From a virus: a stretch of 43,051 bases of DNA. Within the stretch, counting starts at the first letter, position 1. Each line of letters begins with the position of its first letter. The position numbers and the translations under genes were made by a program. The stretch covers positions 1-43,051 of the IMG/VR virus record IMGVR_UViG_3300049259_000113; one strand, given 5' to 3'. The notes below the pieces were generated by a model. It was not told the DNA's origin. It was given only the letters and a program-made list of their open reading frames with translations, and did no database searches. Positions 4,288 through 20,775 of the stretch are shown piece by piece.

Positions 4288-6739
4288 AATTATAGATCTC
4301 CTCCACTGTTAGCTCCTTCAGCTCGCCACCCTCTTCGTCTGTATCCCAGTGCTTGGAGAGCTTGACATTAGCAATGATGGGAACGGTGAGCTTTACTCCG
4401 AACATTCGCTGCAAAGGCAGGTTCTCCATTGTGCGATGAATGATGGGCAAGACATAGGGCAACTCAGGATTTGGTATTTCATAGAGGGCCTCATCGTGCA
4501 CGGTACCGATAGTTCGTGCCTTATAGCCTTCTCGGCGCAATTCCTCATTTACCAAGAGGACAGAGAGCAGAGTCATATCCGAGGCTAATGATTGCACGGG
4601 ACTGTTAATAGCCTGGCGCTCTGCCTCTGCTCTCGTCTCACGATTGGTCGACCGGATGTTGGGAAGATGACGTACTCGGCCTATCAACGAATCGACGAAC
4701 CCGTTCTCTCTCGCGAACCGGCGTTGCTTTTCGTGCCATGTGAGGAACTCGGGAAAGGTCTGGAAGAAGGTACGCCGTGCCAGCTTTGCCTCTGCCTCAG
4801 GGACTCGGATCTGGTAGCCGCGCCAGACCGTATCGATGAAGGTCTTCCACTGCATTCCGTAAATGAATCCGAAGTTAACCCACTTGGCTCGCTTTCTCTC
4901 TTCCTTGAGAACGGCCTCCTCAGGCTTACCTGTAAGCCGAGAAGCCATAACAAGGTGGACATCTTTCCCCGCAGCATAGAGGTCGATGACGCTCTCTGCA
5001 TTGGCCAACATGGCCGAGAGTCTGAACTCCACCTGGCTATAATCAGCCGTTGCAAGAGAACACCCAGGAGCTGCACCAATAACGCCGCGAACAAAGCGAT
5101 CACGAGGAACCTGCTGAGGATTAACTCCGCGCTGTGGCTTTGCCTGAACCTTAGTCTCATCCGCTTTCCCTGCGCTCAGCCGGCCTGTCACAGTACCGGA
5201 CAATTTGAATGTCGTATGCATTCTATCGTCCGAATCCATCAGCTCGTCATAGGCTGAGAAGAAACAAGAGTCGTACTTATACCACTTGGTCCTCTCCATC
5301 AGCAGGGCGATAACAGGATGCTTTCCGAGTAGCTGGAACATCACCGCTTCAGCCATGCTAGGATTGCCGGTCTTAGCGGAGCGCTGAAGAACAGGAAGGC
5401 GAAGGTGTTCGAATAGCCACCAGAGCATAAAGTGACTAGGATTGAAATTAACACCTTTACCGTTGATATGCTTGGGAAGGGTGTCTGGCACATAGGTCAT
5501 TAGCTCGGCCTCAATACGAGCAAGCTCGGCCTTTGCTATCTTCCAGTTCTTGTGCAGTAGTTCGCGGTCAATCCATATGCCAGTCCGCTCAACATGCATG
5601 AAAAGATTGGACGCGGGCATCATGAGGAGTTTGAATAGCCGAGCCAGTTTAGGCCTCTCAATGAATTGTGCCCGCAATGCAAAGTAGAGCCGAGCGGTAT
5701 TCAACGTATCTTCGGCATTGTACTTTAGTACTTTACTGAGTGGCTCAGCGACTAGGTTCTTGTTCTTTATCTTCCAGTCCTCGACAGTCAGCTCTTCTCG
5801 GGCGAGACTGGCCAAGGCCTTTGATCTATTCTCGTCTAGGATATGTGCAGCCAGCATGGTGTCGAAGGTAAAGGTAATGGGAACGCCAAACTCATTAAGC
5901 CATCTCCCGTCGAACTTGCCGTTATGGGCAACTCGGACAGGAATGTCACATAAGACCTTCCCTATTATCTTCAGCTCTTCTTTCCACCTATCCCGAAGCC
6001 AGCTCTGTGGATGCCAGAGAGGAACGGCCCATATTATTCTCGGGTCAGTATCACCTTTACCCCAGAGAGTGAATGCAATAGAGACCATGCGAGAGTCGGG
6101 CTTGAATTCATCAAAGGCATTGCTCTCGATATCCACTGCTACGCCGTGAGCAAACATGCTCATATCGGTCAGCATCTCTTCAAGAGCCTCTGGCGTCTGT
6201 ACTCGCCCGTACGGGACCTTTGGGTATAGCTTGCTCTGAACGCCTAGCAGTAGAGAGTTGAATAGCCTCAGGTCAGCTCGGAAGCCTTTCTCATGCCCCG
6301 GCTGCATCTCAACCATTGCGGGAGACAGCGTGCCAAAGGCTTGTGCAGTATGTCCTTTCGTAGGATAAACTTTGCCGCGGTGTTTCATAATGCCCGAGTG
6401 GCCAGTGACTGCTAGCAGTGCCTCATTGCCAAAGGTAAGAATCCACTCCGGCTGTAGAGCCGCCAGCTCTTGTGCGAGATAATGGCCACACGACTTGATG
6501 TCTGCCTTACTGGGCTGTAGAGTCCAGGTGCGGCAACGTACTGCACTGGTTAGCGCAAAGGGTTCAACTATTCCCGAAGTCTTGAGAAGATGTTCGATCT
6601 TGGCTCGACTAGCTGGGAACTTCGTCACTACCAATAGGCGAATGGGCTTACTGGGCGATGTGGCAATGACGCAGCGGTCTTCTCCGTGAGCCTCTGAATG
6701 TAAGGGACAGCGCTCACAATGGGCATCACGAATAGGCAT
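4277..6739 (-). CDS. polA: DNA polymerase I with N-terminal UDG-like Fe-S domain (820 aa)
   Basis: Replicative family A polymerase. Residues 1-160 resemble a family 4/5 uracil-DNA glycosylase. Cysteines C8, C11, C69 and C84 sit where the 4Fe-4S ligands lie, with an LQPEWILTFGNEAL helix and HRGKVY. The catalytic GEAPG and HPS motifs are absent (VTKFPAS and LSPAM instead). Residues about 200-350 are a 3'-5' exonuclease with D203/E205, N273/D277 and Y340/D344. The polymerase domain has motif A DYSQVEF (D566), motif B R625-x3-K629-x7-YG and motif C HDE (748-750), all intact. There is no 5'-3' exonuclease. Its start lies 14 bp inside the TS-like gene, implying translational coupling. Confidence 0.93.
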   Translation of the reverse strand: MPIRDAHCERCPLHSEAHGEDRCVIATSPSKPIRLLVVTKFPASRAKIEHLLKTSGIVEPFALTSAVRCRTWTLQPSKADIKSCGHYLAQELAALQPEWILTFGNEALLAVTGHSGIMKHRGKVYPTKGHTAQAFGTLSPAMVEMQPGHEKGFRADLRLFNSLLLGVQSKLYPKVPYGRVQTPEALEEMLTDMSMFAHGVAVDIESNAFDEFKPDSRMVSIAFTLWGKGDTDPRIIWAVPLWHPQSWLRDRWKEELKIIGKVLCDIPVRVAHNGKFDGRWLNEFGVPITFTFDTMLAAHILDENRSKALASLAREELTVEDWKIKNKNLVAEPLSKVLKYNAEDTLNTARLYFALRAQFIERPKLARLFKLLMMPASNLFMHVERTGIWIDRELLHKNWKIAKAELARIEAELMTYVPDTLPKHINGKGVNFNPSHFMLWWLFEHLRLPVLQRSAKTGNPSMAEAVMFQLLGKHPVIALLMERTKWYKYDSCFFSAYDELMDSDDRMHTTFKLSGTVTGRLSAGKADETKVQAKPQRGVNPQQVPRDRFVRGVIGAAPGCSLATADYSQVEFRLSAMLANAESVIDLYAAGKDVHLVMASRLTGKPEEAVLKEERKRAKWVNFGFIYGMQWKTFIDTVWRGYQIRVPEAEAKLARRTFFQTFPEFLTWHEKQRRFARENGFVDSLIGRVRHLPNIRSTNRETRAEAERQAINSPVQSLASDMTLLSVLLVNEELRREGYKARTIGTVHDEALYEIPNPELPYVLPIIHRTMENLPLQRMFGVKLTVPIIANVKLSKHWDTDEEGGELKELTVEEIYNYGD

Positions 6740-7532
6740 TGCGTAGATCGCCCACCATCGCGTGGAGATTCATGATGTGCATCACCAGAATGCCCGGCTG
6801 AAGGTCGTCTTCCTCTGGATCAAAGAGCTGATCGGCTACCCACTGTTGAAGTCGTGCAGCCATGTAAACGTCATTGCGAAAGTGTCGGATCAGATCGCAG
6901 GATCGAATCATATAGGTCATGTCGAGGCGATTGGTTTCTGGGTTGTACTGAAAGTGATAGCCCAGGCTGCAAGGCACTCGCTGGCCCATTGCAACGCCTG
7001 TATCTTCTGGAAACCAGATAGGCAGATAAGCCTGCCGTGTCATTATTTTCTCATCGAGCAGATGAACCACATCGTTAAGATCCCCGTATCGGAAACGTAT
7101 ACCTTTTTGTTCAGCCGGATCAGTTGAGTAGCCATTGCCTCCAGGTTCTGCGTGCTTAGGCCACATACGCTCAGGGTAAGTATGATCGAAGACTCCTCCG
7201 TCGGCATGAGCCATAGGACTACCGTGGTGATGTGGCCATTTCGAGACACTTGGAGGGGGATTATGAGGGACTCCGGATACTCGCTCCTGAAAGTGTTCTT
7301 CGGCCCAGGGCAGATCGGGATGAATTTCATCAGCGGCTTTCTCCATTGATAGGGGGACGGCATAACGAACGGTGACATTAAGCCTTTCATGCATGAGGTG
7401 AACGACCGAGCCGCTGACGTTGAGCTTCTGCCACTCCATTCGGTTAGTAGCCGGGCGGTCATTCAAGTCCGAGAGAAGGAAATTGTAGAATACCTCGAAC
7501 TCGGTGTGCTTTCCGCCCACATTATATTCCAT
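6726..7532 (-). CDS. Thymidylate-synthase-superfamily protein, dCMP-type (268 aa)
   Basis: Shows the TS core. R185-V-P-C188 is the nucleophile motif, followed by GYHFQY, then IRSCD with R210, and FRNDVYMAARL. D221 stands exactly 11 residues after R210, where TS has the Asn that selects uracil. In T4 dCMP hydroxymethylase the equivalent residue is also Asp (established). Near the end, MNLHAM stands in for the GDAHIY nucleotide-binding strand. Predicted to act on dCMP, by hydroxymethylation or methylation at C5, on soluble nucleotide before polymerisation. Coupled by a 1-bp TGATG junction to a second TS-like gene and overlapping polA. Classical TS activity on dUMP is the alternative. Confidence 0.75.
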   Translation of the reverse strand: MEYNVGGKHTEFEVFYNFLLSDLNDRPATNRMEWQKLNVSGSVVHLMHERLNVTVRYAVPLSMEKAADEIHPDLPWAEEHFQERVSGVPHNPPPSVSKWPHHHGSPMAHADGGVFDHTYPERMWPKHAEPGGNGYSTDPAEQKGIRFRYGDLNDVVHLLDEKIMTRQAYLPIWFPEDTGVAMGQRVPCSLGYHFQYNPETNRLDMTYMIRSCDLIRHFRNDVYMAARLQQWVADQLFDPEEDDLQPGILVMHIMNLHAMVGDLRNAYS

Positions 7533-8482
7533 CAGCTAACTACCTCCACTTTGTCGAAGTCGGGCTCAGCGCGCGATGCTCTCTTGGAGAAGTGTATCAC
7601 AAGGTCAGCGGGTCGGAAGTGAGCAATGGGCTTGAATCTCCGCATGGCCGGCGTCTCAAAGGGCTCTCCATATTCAAACCCCAGGATCTCGGTATGGTAT
7701 CGCCGACGGAATCTAGCCATTGTGTTATAGGCCATATCGGCATAAGGAATACCGGCCTCATCCAGCTCTATCCACTTATCAAACCATTTCCGCGAGTGAT
7801 ACACACCCGGGCATTCCTGTCGAGCCGTTTTGGCCTTTGGGTCAAAGTTGAGGAACTGGTCTTCATTTTCATAGAACATCCAGCCGACACTTCGCATGGG
7901 ATGAAACTGAATAGCGTCGAGATGCCAGACGAAGCGCATTGCCTCAACGGGCAATCCTACTCTCTCTCCAACTTCCCGGGCCATGCAATGTGCAAGTGAG
8001 ATATCGAGGCCGCCAATGTATCCCAGGTAGGATGTTCGAGAGTGCATGGTAATCTGTGGGAGAGGGAGCTGTCGATAGCTGAATCCAAGAATGCAGCTTC
8101 CCCAGCGGCGAGTGAGACCACGACCCGACTGTCGGGGGGCAACCATGTTCGTTCGCAGCGTTGCGATTCCTCTTGCATTCTTCTTTACCGCCAATCCATT
8201 CTCGATGGAATCCAACCACAATTCGTACGCGCCCTTGTCAAGGTATTGTGATACCAGCGCTCCCCATCTGGCCTTACTGTACCAGTGCTTGTGGAGAGGG
8301 TAATCCCACTTGAAACTCTCGGCAACTGCGAGAATGTTGTGGCGACTGACGCTGATGGAGATGTCATCGTCCACTTGACCTTGACTGGTAATGGCCAGAG
8401 AGCGCACCATCTCGCGGTAAAGTCGAGTGGCATCTTTGGTCAAGTAGGTATACATCAATCCCTCATTTCCGTAAACATACAT
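7532..8482 (-). CDS. Second, divergent thymidylate-synthase-like protein (316 aa)
   Basis: The central region aligns by eye to TS. RRWGSC130ILGFSY corresponds to the nucleophile motif. R149 in MHSRTSYLG corresponds to the phosphate-binding RS motif. D160 in IGGLDISLAH, 11 residues later, stands at the TS Asn position. VWHLDAIQFHP corresponds to the GDAHIYxNH strand, with the nucleotide-binding His and Tyr replaced by Ile and Phe. It is longer and more diverged than its downstream neighbour. It may be a second nucleotide-modifying enzyme or a partner subunit. It starts at a TGATG junction with the kinase gene. Fold moderately sure, substrate unsure. Confidence 0.6.
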   Translation of the reverse strand: MYVYGNEGLMYTYLTKDATRLYREMVRSLAITSQGQVDDDISISVSRHNILAVAESFKWDYPLHKHWYSKARWGALVSQYLDKGAYELWLDSIENGLAVKKNARGIATLRTNMVAPRQSGRGLTRRWGSCILGFSYRQLPLPQITMHSRTSYLGYIGGLDISLAHCMAREVGERVGLPVEAMRFVWHLDAIQFHPMRSVGWMFYENEDQFLNFDPKAKTARQECPGVYHSRKWFDKWIELDEAGIPYADMAYNTMARFRRRYHTEILGFEYGEPFETPAMRRFKPIAHFRPADLVIHFSKRASRAEPDFDKVEVVS

Positions 8483-8985
8483 CAGGCTCTGATGCCTTCT
8501 CTCAGTCGCCAGTGACTGTCTGCTCGGGCGATTGCTTTGCGATAGCTGTAGGGATCTAGGTAATTGTACTCGATAACCCTCGCATCAGTCAGTGGGTAAC
8601 GGAGAAGGAAGTCGTATAGATTAACCGCAGGATCGGTGAGAACGTTGTCAGGCGGACGGCAGTAAATAATGAGCGATTGATCAAAGAAGAACTCAAGCAA
8701 TGGCCTAATGCTGCTGGAATCAAAACCCTCCGAGATTCGCCCTCGATGAGTGGTACCGTAAACGTACTCGTCGATCAGAGGATAACCATCGTAAATGCCC
8801 GTGCCATAACGATAGTTAGGCCAATCGTGAAGTTCCTCTCGGACTTTGTCGAGAAGGAAATCACCTCGTCCGCGATGCCCGGTAAATGGCTGACGAACGG
8901 GCAATTGAAGATCTACGGATAGGCTATTGACGAGGGTAGTCTTTCCAGAATCTGCGGGACCCTCAACTATTATCACCTTTCTCAC
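8482..8985 (-). CDS. P-loop nucleotide kinase paralogue 2 (167 aa)
   Basis: GTG start at 8985, so the protein begins VRKVIIVEGPADSGKTTLV, aligning end-to-end with the neighbouring kinase; a longer upstream frame would run deep into that gene. The P-loop GPADSGKT is intact, but the DR(F/Y) motif of thymidylate-kinase-like enzymes reads YDGYPLIDEYVYG, with Arg replaced by Gly. SLIIYCRPP is shared with the paralogue. Likely phosphorylates a (modified) deoxynucleotide, or has lost that activity. It overlaps the upstream kinase by 23 bp and the downstream TS-like gene by 1 bp. Confidence 0.75.
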   Translation of the reverse strand: MRKVIIVEGPADSGKTTLVNSLSVDLQLPVRQPFTGHRGRGDFLLDKVREELHDWPNYRYGTGIYDGYPLIDEYVYGTTHRGRISEGFDSSSIRPLLEFFFDQSLIIYCRPPDNVLTDPAVNLYDFLLRYPLTDARVIEYNYLDPYSYRKAIARADSHWRLREGIRA

Positions 8986-9478
8986 CCCATGACCGTCTAT
9001 GCGCTCGAATTGTAGGACCCAGATTGCTGGGCTTTTCATCGGTGTAGTCGTACAGAAGATGCGGCACACTGGTAAAGTATTCATCATAGGCCTGGATGAT
9101 GGGCATTATCTTAGCCTGAATGTCTTCGGGCTGGCCAGTAGTCGCAACATTGTCCAGGATCACCTGAATGGGCGGGCGACAGTAGATAATGAGGGTATCC
9201 TGCATCAGGCGATTGAGAAGCAAGGTAGTCGCCAGATTGTCCAGTGCAAACTCGGTGGATATGTTGCGTCGGCGAATGGGGCCATAGATGTACTCACCCA
9301 CTAAAGGGAATCGATCATAGACGCAAAGGGCATCCCTCTCCCATCCGGTCATTTCAGCAAGTGCCCAGAGGTAGGGGTCCTGATGAATGCGGCGTCTGGT
9401 CTCTATCTTGTGAATAGCCGACAGAGAGGCCGCTAGTGTGGTTTTACCCGCACCGTCTGGGCCTTCAAGAATGATCAC
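8963..9478 (-). CDS. P-loop (deoxy)nucleotide kinase, thymidylate-kinase-like (171 aa)
   Basis: Walker A EGPDGAGKTTL at the N-terminus, DR motif in YDRFPLVGEYIYGPI, and a TLIIYCRPP strand, all as in phage thymidylate/deoxynucleoside monophosphate kinases. The start is taken as GTG at 9478, which gives a GTGA overlap with the MazG-like stop and a GGAG 8 nt upstream; a TTG six bases earlier is less likely. In context it would return a monophosphate, perhaps a modified dCMP, to the di/triphosphate pool used by PolA. Confidence 0.8.
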   Translation of the reverse strand: MIILEGPDGAGKTTLAASLSAIHKIETRRRIHQDPYLWALAEMTGWERDALCVYDRFPLVGEYIYGPIRRRNISTEFALDNLATTLLLNRLMQDTLIIYCRPPIQVILDNVATTGQPEDIQAKIMPIIQAYDEYFTSVPHLLYDYTDEKPSNLGPTIRAHRRSWGEKGDNS

Positions 9479-9774
9479 AGCCAATTCTCCATCTGCACCA
9501 CGCCCGACTTAATGGCCTGAACACCGGACAGCATGACGTTAGCGGCCTGAATCATCTCCTCCATTACTCGCTCCGGCGTCTCTCCCTCTACCATTGCTCG
9601 GGCGACCTCTCCCAGCTCCTCTAGGCCACAAGCAAGGATATAGGACATATCTCTCTTGCCCGACAGAATGCTTCCCTCGCCGTGCTTGTGATGAGCCCTG
9701 ATGGATTCCCTACACACCATAGCGAGAACATCATGGCCCAGCTCACCGGTAATAGCTTTATTCATCGGCGGCAT
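9475..9774 (-). CDS. MazG-like nucleotide pyrophosphohydrolase (99 aa)
   Basis: A small all-helical protein. LEELGEVARAM gives the first acidic E-x-x-E pair (E53, E56). EEMIQAANVMLSGVQAI resembles the second helix of the phage MazG-like group, although the canonical metal-binding Asp of that helix is not evident. Such enzymes hydrolyse (d)NTPs to monophosphates. Beside two dCMP-type TS homologues, a dCTPase-like role is attractive but unproven. AGGAG precedes the ATG, which overlaps the helicase stop. Confidence 0.7.
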   Translation of the reverse strand: MPPMNKAITGELGHDVLAMVCRESIRAHHKHGEGSILSGKRDMSYILACGLEELGEVARAMVEGETPERVMEEMIQAANVMLSGVQAIKSGVVQMENWL

Positions 9775-11281
9775 AGCCTCTCCTTAATCTTTCTGGGTGG
9801 CGGATAATGGCACGTGCAACCTGGCCATCAGCTTGAAGGGTTTCGTAGAGCAAGTCATCGATCCCTCCCGCTAACATATAGGTGAACGTAGTGCTTACTC
9901 TACTCAGGGCGATCCTGTCGCAGCACTGCAGGTAATCCACAAAGGAGTTGGTAAGGGAGTACCAGATCATCCGACTGGCGAATGACATATCGATCCCCAA
10001 GGATGCAGCGCGCGGTTGTACTATGTGAACGCACGGGCCAGTTAGTCGCCTGGCCTTTTCTAAGTCAGCAGTAACCCAGGCTCGTTTCATTCCTCCCCTG
10101 ATTTCGAAAATCGGGAGGCGACTACTAATACGGCGAACTGCGTCATAAAGGCAATCAAGATCTGGACGAAACCTTGCAGCGACAACGATCTTCTCCCCAT
10201 TATCCAAGGCATTTTCGATCAGCGGCATTATCGCATCGAGCTTTTCTCGGCCCACTGTTATTACCTCGCCTTTGTCTGTAGTCACATGGCCAGACGTTAT
10301 CTGGGCGAGGCGTAATACTTTCACCAGCGGTATTGGTGCTTCTGCGGTGTGCTGACGAATATAGGCAACCATCCTCTCGGCCATGTCATCATAGGCCTTA
10401 GCAGCTCGGGAGAGCTTAACCCGAACAATCTGAATGTCCGACTCTGGCAGATCAAAGCACTGGTCGCGAGCAATGCTGAATGCATCCTTTGCCATTAAGG
10501 CTTGTAATTCCTCGAAGTGGCGCGCTCCTTTCCACATCTTGACTGGAACATCCGGCAACTGAATGAAGCGGCCAAAGTAATTTTTGAACTCGTCGAAATC
10601 CTCCCATTCATCGAGGCGATCTGGGTTAAGAAACCGCCACTGCATCCAGATGTCATGCGCTCGGGAAGCCTTGGTAATGGGAGTGCCTGTCATAATGACT
10701 CTATATGGGGCGTCGCGATGCAGAGTCACCAGGGTCTGTGCCGCTCGCCCACCAGTAGACTTGATTCGATGGCTTTCGTCCAGAGTAATGCCCGTTGTGT
10801 GGTCTGCCCATTCGCGAACCAGGTTGCGATTCTTGATGCGGCCATTCTTGGTGGATCTGCGAAACTTGGGATTACCGTTAACGTCTTTCTTTCCAGTAGG
10901 TATCTTGCGACCAGGAACACCAAAGGCTTCGTAGTTGGTAATGACCACGAGCAATCGATTGGGATGAGGAATGGGAAGGCCGCCATGGCCATTCGCGGTG
11001 TACTTTCTCTCGCGCTGGTCCCAGTGATACACCTCGTAAGGAACGGTAGCGTGAGTGGCCAACTCTGATTCCCACACATCAGCTACGAATTTCGGACATA
11101 CGATCAGTATTTTTGACACTTGGCCGAGCTGGAATTTAGCGCACCAGAAGTCAATGGCCACTTTCGTCTTGCCCGTTCGTGGATCCATGAGCAGGGCTCC
11201 GCCATAGCCTTGCCTAAGCAATTGCTTGAGGGCCTTTACCTGATGAACGTAAGGCCTCGTCTTATAGCGGTATTGTGTCAC
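9758..11281 (-). CDS. SNF2-type superfamily 2 DNA helicase (507 aa)
   Basis: Motif I MDPRTGKT (residues 32-39) follows an N-terminal RPYVHQ Q-motif-like stretch. Motif II is LDESHRIK and motif III VIMTGTPIT. The C-terminal lobe contains IVQPRAASLGIDM and DRIALSR, as in phage SNF2-like helicases. Probably translocates on duplex DNA during replication or recombination. GTG at 11281 is chosen because it forms a GTGA overlap with the 54-aa gene upstream, so the longer TTG-initiated version is not needed. Confidence 0.88.
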   Translation of the reverse strand: MTQYRYKTRPYVHQVKALKQLLRQGYGGALLMDPRTGKTKVAIDFWCAKFQLGQVSKILIVCPKFVADVWESELATHATVPYEVYHWDQRERKYTANGHGGLPIPHPNRLLVVITNYEAFGVPGRKIPTGKKDVNGNPKFRRSTKNGRIKNRNLVREWADHTTGITLDESHRIKSTGGRAAQTLVTLHRDAPYRVIMTGTPITKASRAHDIWMQWRFLNPDRLDEWEDFDEFKNYFGRFIQLPDVPVKMWKGARHFEELQALMAKDAFSIARDQCFDLPESDIQIVRVKLSRAAKAYDDMAERMVAYIRQHTAEAPIPLVKVLRLAQITSGHVTTDKGEVITVGREKLDAIMPLIENALDNGEKIVVAARFRPDLDCLYDAVRRISSRLPIFEIRGGMKRAWVTADLEKARRLTGPCVHIVQPRAASLGIDMSFASRMIWYSLTNSFVDYLQCCDRIALSRVSTTFTYMLAGGIDDLLYETLQADGQVARAIIRHPERLRRGYAADE

Positions 11282-11442
11282 CGACCGTGTCTCTTCTTGA
11301 GGGCTGATTGTAGCTGGCAATTCAGCTGGTCGTACAGGAAGTTCCTCATTCTTTCTGGGTCTTCTTCAGAGTCCACCTCAACTACTATTTCCGAATGGCG
11401 CTGGTCTTTCAGAATGGCTCCAATTCTCGCTAGGTATTTCAT
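11278..11442 (-). CDS. Small hypothetical protein (54 aa)
   Basis: A 54-residue frame joined to both neighbours by 4-bp overlaps (ATGA at its start, GTGA at its end). It begins MKYLARIGAILKDQRHSE, then VVEVDSEEDPERMRNF, and ends LKKRHGR. Predicted as a small alpha/beta protein with an acidic middle and basic end. No family recognised. Confidence 0.75.
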   Translation of the reverse strand: MKYLARIGAILKDQRHSEIVVEVDSEEDPERMRNFLYDQLNCQLQSALKKRHGR

Positions 11443-17936: not shown

Positions 17937-18145
17937 GGGAGATAAAGGAAAGGCCGCCGAAGACGGAGTTTGTGATCGCAGCGGACGGGCATGAGTGGCT
18001 GAGAACCATGTGCCGCTATGACACCTGCCATTTTCACGTCATGCAGAAGCTCGGACAACCGGGCGATAAGCCGCCTCCTGCTGGCCTATGGATTCACTGG
18101 TGCTGGGAGCGCGATGCCTTTGTTATCTGGGATGGGCGCGGATGA
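17933..18145 (+). CDS. Small hypothetical protein (70 aa)
   Basis: GTG start in GTGA overlap. Contains MCRYDTCHFHVMQ, a Cys/His cluster that may bind metal, and an aromatic C-terminus (LWIHWCWERDAFVIWDG). Ends in an ATGA overlap with the DUF4031 gene. Confidence 0.65.
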   Translation: MREIKERPPKTEFVIAADGHEWLRTMCRYDTCHFHVMQKLGQPGDKPPPAGLWIHWCWERDAFVIWDGRG

Positions 18146-18522
18146 CCGTTTATGTGGATGAGGCTGCAATAGGTGCGGCAGTGCACAATGCCATTACTGG
18201 ACGTACGGTGCGCGGTGTTTGGTACCATATGTTCTCGGATCGCCTTAATCCACGAGAGCTGCATGAAATGGCAGAGGCTATTGGCCTACGTCGCGCTTAT
18301 TTCCAGCGTAGCGTATATGCCGGTGGAAGGTATATGGGTAAGATAAACTATGCCCATGATCACTACGATGTCACGCGATCCAAGAGAGCGGAGGCTATTA
18401 GGCTGGGCGCAGAACCAGTAAGCATGAGCCGTGCAGTAGAGATCTGGCAGGATAAACGACAGCGTGAATGGGCAGCGAGAGAGGCAGCTAATGAAAGCGA
18501 ACATGCCGCAGGTGGTAACTGA
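18142..18522 (+). CDS. DUF4031 domain protein (126 aa)
   Basis: The DUF4031 pattern is clear: MTVYVDEAAIG at the start, then HMFSDRLNPRELHEMAEAIG, RRAYFQR, a HYDVTRSKRAEAIRLGA segment and a trailing helix. The family is common in actinobacteria and their phages and its biochemistry is not established. The N-terminal 'xVYVD' plus conserved His residues look enzyme-like. The start at 18142 forms ATGA with the upstream stop. Confidence 0.82.
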   Translation: MTVYVDEAAIGAAVHNAITGRTVRGVWYHMFSDRLNPRELHEMAEAIGLRRAYFQRSVYAGGRYMGKINYAHDHYDVTRSKRAEAIRLGAEPVSMSRAVEIWQDKRQREWAAREAANESEHAAGGN

Positions 18523-18712: not shown

Positions 18713-18951
18713 ATCGACCGGAGAAGATGATTGCCTACGGAGCAGTATGCTCCTGGTGGGATTCAAAGGACAAGGTAGGTCAACTCCCTAGTGGGTTGCC
18801 CTGCTGTCCTCACTGCGGGCTCGTCCTCTATGAGATGGAGGAGACGCGCTGGTGGGCTAGTGTCGACGACTATTCTCAAAAGGTGAAGGGCTATCGAGAG
18901 CTGATCGAGGCAGACCGCGGGAAATGTAACATGGTCGGAGTAGGGCGATGA
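18709..18951 (+). CDS. Zinc-knuckle small protein (80 aa)
   Basis: Contains LPCCPHCGLVLYEME, a rubredoxin-like C-x2-C knuckle, and two Trp-rich stretches (CSWWDSKD, TRWWASVDD). Starts and ends in ATGA overlaps. Similar small 'W...CPHCGxxL' proteins are frequent in actinophages; no function known. Confidence 0.7.
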   Translation: MNRPEKMIAYGAVCSWWDSKDKVGQLPSGLPCCPHCGLVLYEMEETRWWASVDDYSQKVKGYRELIEADRGKCNMVGVGR

Positions 18952-19601
18952 GTTGGATAGTGGATTATCTGATCGCTCCCATGGCTGGCATAATGATGCT
19001 GGCCTTTGCGATGCTCGTCACCGTGTGGTATCTGGCTATCTGCATGGGAAAGGACGAGAGATTCAGTCGCCATGCTCTGGGCGTAACGTGCACGGTCTTT
19101 CAGATAGGCCATTTGATCGAGCACACCATTCAGCTCGGAGCATGGGGGATAGCGCCCGAGAATGGAATGCCATGGATGAGTCCCGTCGCTTACGTAGGTG
19201 AGAAGGGCCTCGCCATCATCGGGCGACATCCAGGCAATATGGCAGTAGGCATGGAGATGTTGCATTTCATTGGCAACTGGATATTCCTGATTGGGCTTAT
19301 GACATGGGCAAGCCAATTTTCTCATCCGTGGCTTACCTTTGCTGTACGCCTGCAATCCCTTCACGTCCTTGAGCACGTAGCTTTGACGCTGACCGTATTC
19401 ATTCATGGATCGCCGATAGGGCTGAGCACTTTGTTTGGCTATGCGGCGACTCTGCCATGGACATTCTTCAGTGATGGCGGCTATCGAATCTGGTTCCACT
19501 TCCTTGCAAACGCCGTTGCCACAATCGCCACAGTGGGGGCGTTGGCTTACTGGCGTAGAGCGCCCGCACCGGAGGTATCTTATGAGCCGATTCATGCGTA
19601 A
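18948..19601 (+). CDS. Multi-pass His-rich membrane protein (217 aa)
   Basis: Five or six hydrophobic helices with histidines inside or at their edges: H55-x2-E-H59 (FQIGHLIEHTIQ), H106, H139-x2-E-H143 (LQSLHVLEHVAL), H153 and H184 (WFHFLAN). The repeated HxxEH pattern suggests an internal duplication and a metal or heme site in the membrane. I cannot name the family. It starts in an ATGA overlap, and a lipoprotein gene overlaps its 3' end by 20 bp, so the two may act together in the envelope. Confidence 0.75.
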   Translation: MSWIVDYLIAPMAGIMMLAFAMLVTVWYLAICMGKDERFSRHALGVTCTVFQIGHLIEHTIQLGAWGIAPENGMPWMSPVAYVGEKGLAIIGRHPGNMAVGMEMLHFIGNWIFLIGLMTWASQFSHPWLTFAVRLQSLHVLEHVALTLTVFIHGSPIGLSTLFGYAATLPWTFFSDGGYRIWFHFLANAVATIATVGALAYWRRAPAPEVSYEPIHA

Positions 19602-20316: not shown

Positions 20317-20775
20317 ATGCCACCTCGTCGGAAGAGCAACTTCGGGGATACTCAGCGGCATATCCTGATTAGGGAGCGTACCGCTAAGGCATTGAAGATG
20401 AGGCGAGCCGGCTATACACCTGCTCAGATTGCACGACGTCTTCCTGAGTACAACACTGAGAAGCAGGTAAGGGTTGATCTGCGGAAAGCGTTGCAGGAGA
20501 TGATTCAAGAGCCAGCGCAAGAATTGCTGGCCCTGCAATACCACCGATTCGAAGCGCTTATCCTTTCCATCTGGCGAGAAGCATTGGCCGGGGATTATCA
20601 AGCGCACGATCGGATTCTTAAGTTGATCGAGGGCGAGAATAGACTACTTCGCCTTGGTCAAGGTACTATCGGGGAGGACAACCACTCGGATGTCGAACGC
20701 TGGTTGGCTGGACTAATAGGGCAAGTCGCAGAGTCTACCAGCGACGATATAGAAGATGACGCCTATGAGGAGTAA
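20317..20775 (+). CDS. Terminase small subunit, putative (152 aa)
   Basis: The N-terminal part carries a helix-turn-helix (RRAGYTPAQIARRLPEYNTE) and the rest is helical (YHRFEALILSIWREALAGDY). This architecture is typical of small terminase/DNA-recognition subunits. It lies three genes upstream of the large subunit, at the head of the structural operon. Start probably leaderless. Confidence 0.7.
   Translation: MPPRRKSNFGDTQRHILIRERTAKALKMRRAGYTPAQIARRLPEYNTEKQVRVDLRKALQEMIQEPAQELLALQYHRFEALILSIWREALAGDYQAHDRILKLIEGENRLLRLGQGTIGEDNHSDVERWLAGLIGQVAESTSDDIEDDAYEE

Follow-up and report, generated by a model that had tools for sequence, protein, structure and literature searches.

A Conserved Pair of Thymidylate Synthase-Fold Proteins Encoded Next to a Phage DNA Polymerase I, With a Predicted Role in Cytosine Modification

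In this study, we analyzed a gene cassette carried by IMG/VR virus record IMGVR_UViG_3300049259_000113 (43,051 bases, taken whole and hereafter called the window), in which two proteins with the thymidylate synthase (TS) fold, here named family 1 and family 2, are encoded side by side ahead of the gene for DNA polymerase I (PolA). The pairing of these two TS-fold proteins, both with active sites of the type predicted for deoxycytidine monophosphate (dCMP), is ancient and near-obligate, which is a new point. We favor, with modest confidence, the reading that the cassette is a phage-specific module that modifies a deoxycytidine nucleotide at C5 ahead of DNA synthesis. The broader proposal of a first-pass annotation of the window, a dCMP-directed modification cassette beside PolA, finds good support as a prediction from residues, gene order and structure models.

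Two TS-Fold Families With dCMP-Type Active Sites

Family 1 is recognizable by sequence, matching Pfam Thymidylat_synt at 27.9 bits (cut-off 24.3; 1.7e-6) and phrog_160 "thymidylate synthase" at 4e-25. Its AlphaFold model, with a predicted local distance difference test (pLDDT) score of 84.6 and weaker at residues 100-150, has the TS fold (Z about 17 to TS), and Foldseek matched it about equally to TS, MilA, and AfhB. Among 95 family 1 sequences, C188 and R210 were invariant, H257 was kept in all, and D221, at TS position 177, was Asp in 94; the single Asn occurred in Triscuit gp67, itself a full true TS encoded alongside the family 1 gene. Position 147 was Thr or Ser, not the His of TS, and the window protein ends 11 residues past the His207 equivalent, without the C-terminal tail that lies over the folate in TS. 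Family 1 has the fold, Cys, Arg and Asp177 of a dCMP-directed TS-superfamily enzyme and does not have the Asn177 of ThyA enzymes acting on deoxyuridine monophosphate (dUMP). In the MetaGPA study, positions 177 and 147 best separated the TS homologues of modified contigs from those of unmodified ones, TS homologues of modified-cytosine contigs had Asp177, and the change N177D was cited as switching TS from dUMP to dCMP (PMC8670742). Because Asp177 is fixed in both families, along with Thr/Ser147 in family 1, the annotated preference for dCMP over dUMP as the likely substrate is supported.

Family 2 corresponds to PHROG 13667. Its 73 sequences, some merely 13-24% identical to the window protein, had just Y80, G128, C130, R149, and D160 as invariant residues; C130, R149, and D160 stood in 72 of 72, one further fragment being gapped. 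The Asp noted by the first-pass annotation 11 residues after the phosphate-site Arg of both window proteins was located exactly (R149/D160 in family 2, R210/D221 in family 1). The Cys-Arg-Asp spacing is 19+11 in family 2, no more than one residue off that of TS, 20+11 in the T4 enzyme and 22+11 in family 1, and the Asp/Arg pattern, given its conservation across divergent sequences, exceeds chance. The AlphaFold model of family 2, built on a 57-sequence alignment (pLDDT 91.4; predicted template modeling score, pTM, 0.90), has the TS fold, and its top structural matches were exclusively TS-superfamily structures. The best was AfhB of phage HY126 (9iqu; Z 16.9 over 190 residues, 3.8 A), compared with a Z of 15.7 for MilA and about 12 for TS, and AfhB was also matched by Foldseek (E 2e-5). 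T4 dCMP hydroxymethylase was not among the best 50 VIA matches for family 2, which proves nothing. Judging from the model and the fixed residues, family 2 is predicted to be a TS-fold protein with a dCMP-type active site, and PHROG 13667 would belong in the TS superfamily, a second new point. Profile comparison by hhalign gave family 2 no match to the family 1, RB69-type or T4-type sets, the E-value against the AfhB-type hydroxylases being 0.34; an early hhalign result with C, R, and D in register (P 0.087) was not reproduced on larger alignments and is not counted.

Distribution of the Pair and of the Cassette

Since megablast with the cassette region found no matching phage, relatives were sought by protein, and all phage matches of both TS-like proteins were below 60% identity. 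The pair lies adjacent or nearly so in phages of Gordonia, Mycobacterium (Muddy, JacoRen57), Streptomyces (Zuko, KimJongPhill), Microbacterium (Triscuit), and Curtobacterium (Shrew), as well as in Pseudomonas phage PMBT14 and Yersinia phage P744. The order in these named relatives is kinase, MazG or "dUTPase," family 2, family 1, dCMP deaminase, PolA, exonuclease, and RecA-like protein, with a helicase or recombinase gene upstream of the kinase; Serratia phage Tlacuache also has the cassette, the deaminase there being unannotated. The IMG/VR matches comprised 450 stretches with a family 1 relative. The 74 fetched loci with the pair kept the order without exception, and they included a deaminase in 74, PolA in 73, a kinase in 71, and MazG in 61; the annotated arrangement of MazG, TS-like, kinase, and PolA genes is likewise supported.

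Scanning with family 2 as the seed recovered 67 viral loci plus two contigs from metagenome bins, and family 1 was found within 1.5 kb in 68/68 loci extending past family 2; the family 1- and family 2-seeded scans share contigs and are not independent samples. Of 23 whole records that seemed to hold only family 1, 22 indeed had no family 2, some of these being longer than 340 kb. Taken together, these two counts demonstrated that family 2 depends on family 1 in its distribution and not the reverse. The two TS-like proteins had been read as a duplication; they are no phage-specific duplication, but anciently diverged families paired in scores of phages. A single cassette (L049:4912-7010) holds a tandem pair of family 2 genes, and family 2 occupies two frames at L055:55-926, by frameshift or sequencing error. 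Phage contigs of 153-373 kb with family 1 (L059, L078, L080, L088, and L096) have no cassette kinase, MazG, deaminase, or PolA within about 7 kb of it.

The same distribution bears on a rather doubtful alternative, in which families 1 and 2 form one heteromeric enzyme and family 2 lends residues or a cofactor site to a single modification. Family 2 not being seen without family 1, the adjacent genes in fixed order with a one-base overlap in the window, and the dimeric nature of TS-type enzymes, whose active sites come from both subunits (PMC5175136; PMC6400193), would all suit such a partnership. However, family 2 retains its own Cys, Arg, and Asp throughout, which a silent partner would not need, and family 1 is found alone elsewhere.

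Kinases, MazG-Like Protein, Deaminase, and Tailoring Genes

Kinases A and B were confirmed as paralogous P-loop kinases (39% identity over 117 amino acids, E 3e-18), with PHROG support for both. Kinase A has a GPDGAGKT P-loop and a DR motif. The DR Arg was present in 72/73 cassette kinases, the sole exception being kinase B (Gly), whose P-loop (GPADSGKT) has also lost its Asp; by its sequence, kinase B may be inactive or may act on another substrate. The annotated kinase duplication is present but local to the window, which alone among the pair loci has two kinases, and its second copy lacks both the DR Arg and the P-loop Asp. Kinases A and B fall in a clade of five with very long branches, and this tree leaves a simple recent tandem duplication unsettled.

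The open reading frame (ORF) annotated as a MazG-like hydrolase is present, but its identity is weak: it had no Pfam match beside the PHROG hit in Table 1, it is short and divergent from the MazG of other cassettes, and its 35 bits against the cassette MazG/dUTPase profile came from a profile that itself included it. The window is also alone among the pair loci in being without a deaminase. T4 likewise diverts dCMP to dUMP, and the deaminase of the relatives is explicable, by analogy, as such a diversion.

The deaminase is central to a very unlikely rival, plain thymidylate supply, in which it would make dUMP, family 1 would convert this to dTMP, and the kinase would yield dTDP. In Gordonia phage Azira, four genes arranged as in the cassette (deaminase, "TS," dUTPase, and thymidylate kinase) were published as thymine synthesis (PMC10353413), and all 74 relatives with the pair have the deaminase. 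Nevertheless, family 1 has Asp177 almost throughout where true TS has Asn, three phages (Triscuit with ThyA, Zuko and KimJongPhill with ThyX) have a real TS in addition to family 1, the window was found without a deaminase, and family 2 would be left unexplained.

Additionally, no carbamoyltransferase was found in the window or in 22 other cassette phages searched. GT2 glycosyltransferase (PF00535) was found in none of the cassette phages searched except Zuko and KimJongPhill; PF00535 also misses RB69 and T4, both of which glycosylate, and other transferases are thus possible. The GT2-type glycosyltransferase-like genes of Zuko (MN204493, 76267-77803) and KimJongPhill (MW822144, 76338-77867) are possible tailoring enzymes.

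The Proposed Pathway and Its Chemistry

In the pathway we favor, the MazG-like enzyme would convert dCTP to dCMP, which family 1 would bind, with Cys188 attacking C6 and Asp221 reading the cytosine edge. Family 1 would then add an oxygen-bearing group at C5, by an AfhB-like hydroxylation, which we slightly favor, or a T4-like hydroxymethylation. Family 2 would act in the same pathway, dependent on family 1 and most likely on its product. Kinase A, together with the host nucleoside diphosphate kinase, would make the triphosphate of the modified nucleotide, and PolA would incorporate this modified dCTP to give modified, restriction-resistant DNA.

First, as to the chemistry of family 1, hhalign E-values were 7e-17 against five RB69-type 5-hydroxy-dCMP (5-hodCMP) synthases and 7e-14 against four T4-type hydroxymethylases, and profile scores were 28.7 bits for RB69 versus 22.5 for T4, a comparison that rests on few reference sequences. 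We place hydroxylation somewhat ahead of hydroxymethylation and leave a smaller share to other reactions, a weighting made by judgement, not computed. We hold at low confidence the possibility that family 1 works as T4 gp42 does, as a folate-dependent dCMP hydroxymethylase, the base being 5-hydroxymethyl-dC or a derivative. The window protein and T4 gp42 both have FRND at the Asp and Thr/Ser147, the C-terminal tail is missing from both (PMC6400193), and the invariant Trp99 sits where it would fit folate Trp80/82, a Trp that the hydroxylases do not have. Set against these likenesses, the family 1 profile is closer to the hydroxylases, 93/95 sequences have Arg216 where T4 has F174, the hydrophobic residue of the folate gate (gate: PMC6400193), the equivalent of the likely catalytic E58/E60 is Glu in 64/95 and Asp in 25/95, and the end motif, HxF..D/E, is RB69-like, whereas that of T4 is HxY..H. 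R219 of the window fits the T4 folate-site R177 by position, but varies among family 1.

A further rival, which we regard as improbable, makes family 1 a dCMP methyltransferase and the DNA one with 5-methyl-dC, as in phage Xp12. N177D by itself turns TS into a dCMP methylase, as cited in PMC8670742, yet family 1 stops short of the C-terminal tail with which TS shuts its folate site during methylation (PMC6400193).

Second, family 2 probably either follows family 1 in the pathway or works in a complex with it. More tentatively, it may be a new TS-superfamily branch that takes the 5-modified dCMP produced by family 1 through a second, novel reaction. If this were so, two TS-fold enzymes working in succession would complete an unusual cytosine while it is still a nucleotide, in many phages of Gordonia, Mycobacterium, Streptomyces, Pseudomonas, Serratia, and others.

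Several points weigh against a C5-modifying module. Fold likeness is not proof of dCMP binding, and the geometry between the Asp and the base is drawn from alignment. The search by profile hidden Markov models proposed in the first-pass annotation matched family 1 to TS, but family 2 had no TS match in any sequence search, its homology to TS being undetectable by Pfam (0/57 members), PDB profiles, and hhalign. In addition, the Asp169 of TS is missing from family 2, and a counterpart of His207 is not fixed. Among the helper genes, kinase B looks impaired, support for the MazG-like protein of the window is weak, and no deaminase was found, PF00383 being absent from the whole, possibly incomplete, record. 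Furthermore, no family 2 turned up in the stretch examined around the related cluster of Stenotrophomonas phage AXL3, which is adjoined by a methyltransferase gene, and we found no published base analysis for any phage with both families.

Despite its graded strength, the proposal has several consequences. PHROG 13667, an unassigned protein of scores of phages, gains a likely fold, active site, and pathway. An alternative reading is offered for the "thymine synthesis" genes of well-studied actinobacteriophages; Muddy also bears the cassette. If the reading is true, cytosine in these phages would be modified, with consequences for restriction, CRISPR, and modification-dependent defenses and for efforts to sequence or edit the phages. 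Cultured relatives with the cassette (Muddy, Emalyn, Cleo, and PMBT14) make the idea directly testable.

Gene Layout of the Window

The replication arm of the window runs leftward, and the five overlapping leftward genes that had been annotated directly upstream of polA are all minus-strand ORFs in place (Table 1). Neighboring cassette ORFs share 1 to 14 bases, the kinase A/B pair excepted, and the family 2 and family 1 genes overlap by a single base. The listed kinase A/B overlap is 125 bases; because homology of kinase B begins near residue 34, this is probably a start-call artifact, the kinase B start having been called too far upstream. The family 1 and PolA genes overlap directly (6726-6739), and the deaminase of pair-bearing relatives is absent from between them. 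The N-terminus of PolA has a uracil-DNA-glycosylase-superfamily domain (PF03167, 1e-9) fused ahead of the exonuclease and polymerase domains.

Downstream of PolA lie genes for a Cas4-type exonuclease, a Sak4-like protein, and a single-stranded DNA-binding protein (SSB)-like protein, and primase, terminase, portal, capsid, tail, and lysis genes occur elsewhere in the window. DUF4031 and DUF6008 proteins with no assigned function are encoded at 18088-18522 and 18948-19601, and a small protein at 20317-20775 (+) matched phrog_645, a PHROG named RNase E (1e-19).

Table 1. Cassette genes, key codons, and the upstream neighbor in the window.
Feature	Position	Strand	Basis or remark
SNF2-type helicase	9758..11320	-	SNF2-rel_dom 2e-19; conserved upstream neighbor
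MazG-like nucleotide pyrophosphohydrolase candidate, 99 amino acids (aa)	9475..9774	-	phrog_2831 E 5e-6
Kinase A, P-loop (deoxy)nucleoside monophosphate kinase-like, 173 aa, TTG start	8963..9484	-	phrog_761 thymidylate kinase 3e-18
Kinase B, diverged paralogue, 201 aa as called	8482..9087	-	PHROG-supported, 6e-9
TS-like family 2, 316 aa	7532..8482	-	phrog_13667 (function unassigned) 8e-73
Family 2 Asp160 codon (TS position 177 equivalent)	8003..8005	-	11 after R149
TS-like family 1, 268 aa; C188, S189, R210, D221, H257	6726..7532	-	Pfam TS, phrog_160
Family 1 Asp221 codon (TS position 177 equivalent)	6870..6872	-	11 after R210
DNA polymerase I (PolA), 820 aa	4277..6739	-	DNA_pol_A 2e-75, 3'-5' exonuclease

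Comparison With Known Systems

T4 dCMP hydroxymethylase, the model in the first-pass annotation, turned out to be neither the sole nor the nearest one, AfhB being nearer to family 1 by profile and the best fold match of family 2. T4 gp42 resembles family 1 in Asp177, Thr147, the FRND of the window protein and the missing tail, and its dCTPase, deaminase, and kinase setting is similar. In contrast, T4 directs only one TS-fold enzyme at dCMP, td being a true TS, and gp42 gives family 1 a weaker profile match than the hydroxylase does, with the folate gate residue changed in family 1.

The Mosigvirus enzyme is a TS-superfamily 5-hydroxy-dCMP synthase (PMC13390438); our description of AfhB rests on that paper and on PDB titles, of which that of 9iqc names the flavin dependence of the AfhB-type hydroxylase. 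AfhB corresponds to the RB69 ORF048c protein (540 bits). The AfhB of RB69/HY126 (PDB 9iqc, 9iqu) is like the cassette enzymes in belonging to the TS superfamily, in its Cys, Arg, and Asp, and in the missing tail; moreover, the AfhB/RB69 motifs AE..SG, F..Y..R, and HxF..D are common to family 1, and RB69 has a related kinase gene near its AfhB-type gene. On the other hand, AfhB is far in sequence, and family 1 differs from it by Trp99 and Arg216. To our knowledge, AfhB is a single enzyme with no family 2 partner, and no arabinosylation cluster was recognized in the window.

AXL3 has a TS homologue with Asp177/Thr147 that scored 60 bits against the family 1 profile, and its cluster holds the same helpers as the cassette, namely dCMP deaminase, kinase, and NTP-PPase/MazG genes. 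Of 37 enzymes, 35 failed to cut AXL3 DNA, which resists those with G/C in their sites, and only two with A/T-only sites did cut (PMC7504290). Because of the missing family 2 and the neighboring methyltransferase, this partial experimental parallel is only suggestive. The MetaGPA contigs (TS, PRA-PH, dCMP deaminase, and carbamoyltransferase) share associated domains and Asp177 with the cassette, whereas they have a carbamoyltransferase and the cassette phages searched do not, and family 2 does not figure in their description as far as consulted. Finally, in Ochrobactrum phage ORM_20 (L106:3782-5699), consecutive genes encode a kinase, a pyrophosphohydrolase, and a TS homologue of the AfhB type, which amounts to the cassette with one TS-like enzyme in place of the pair.

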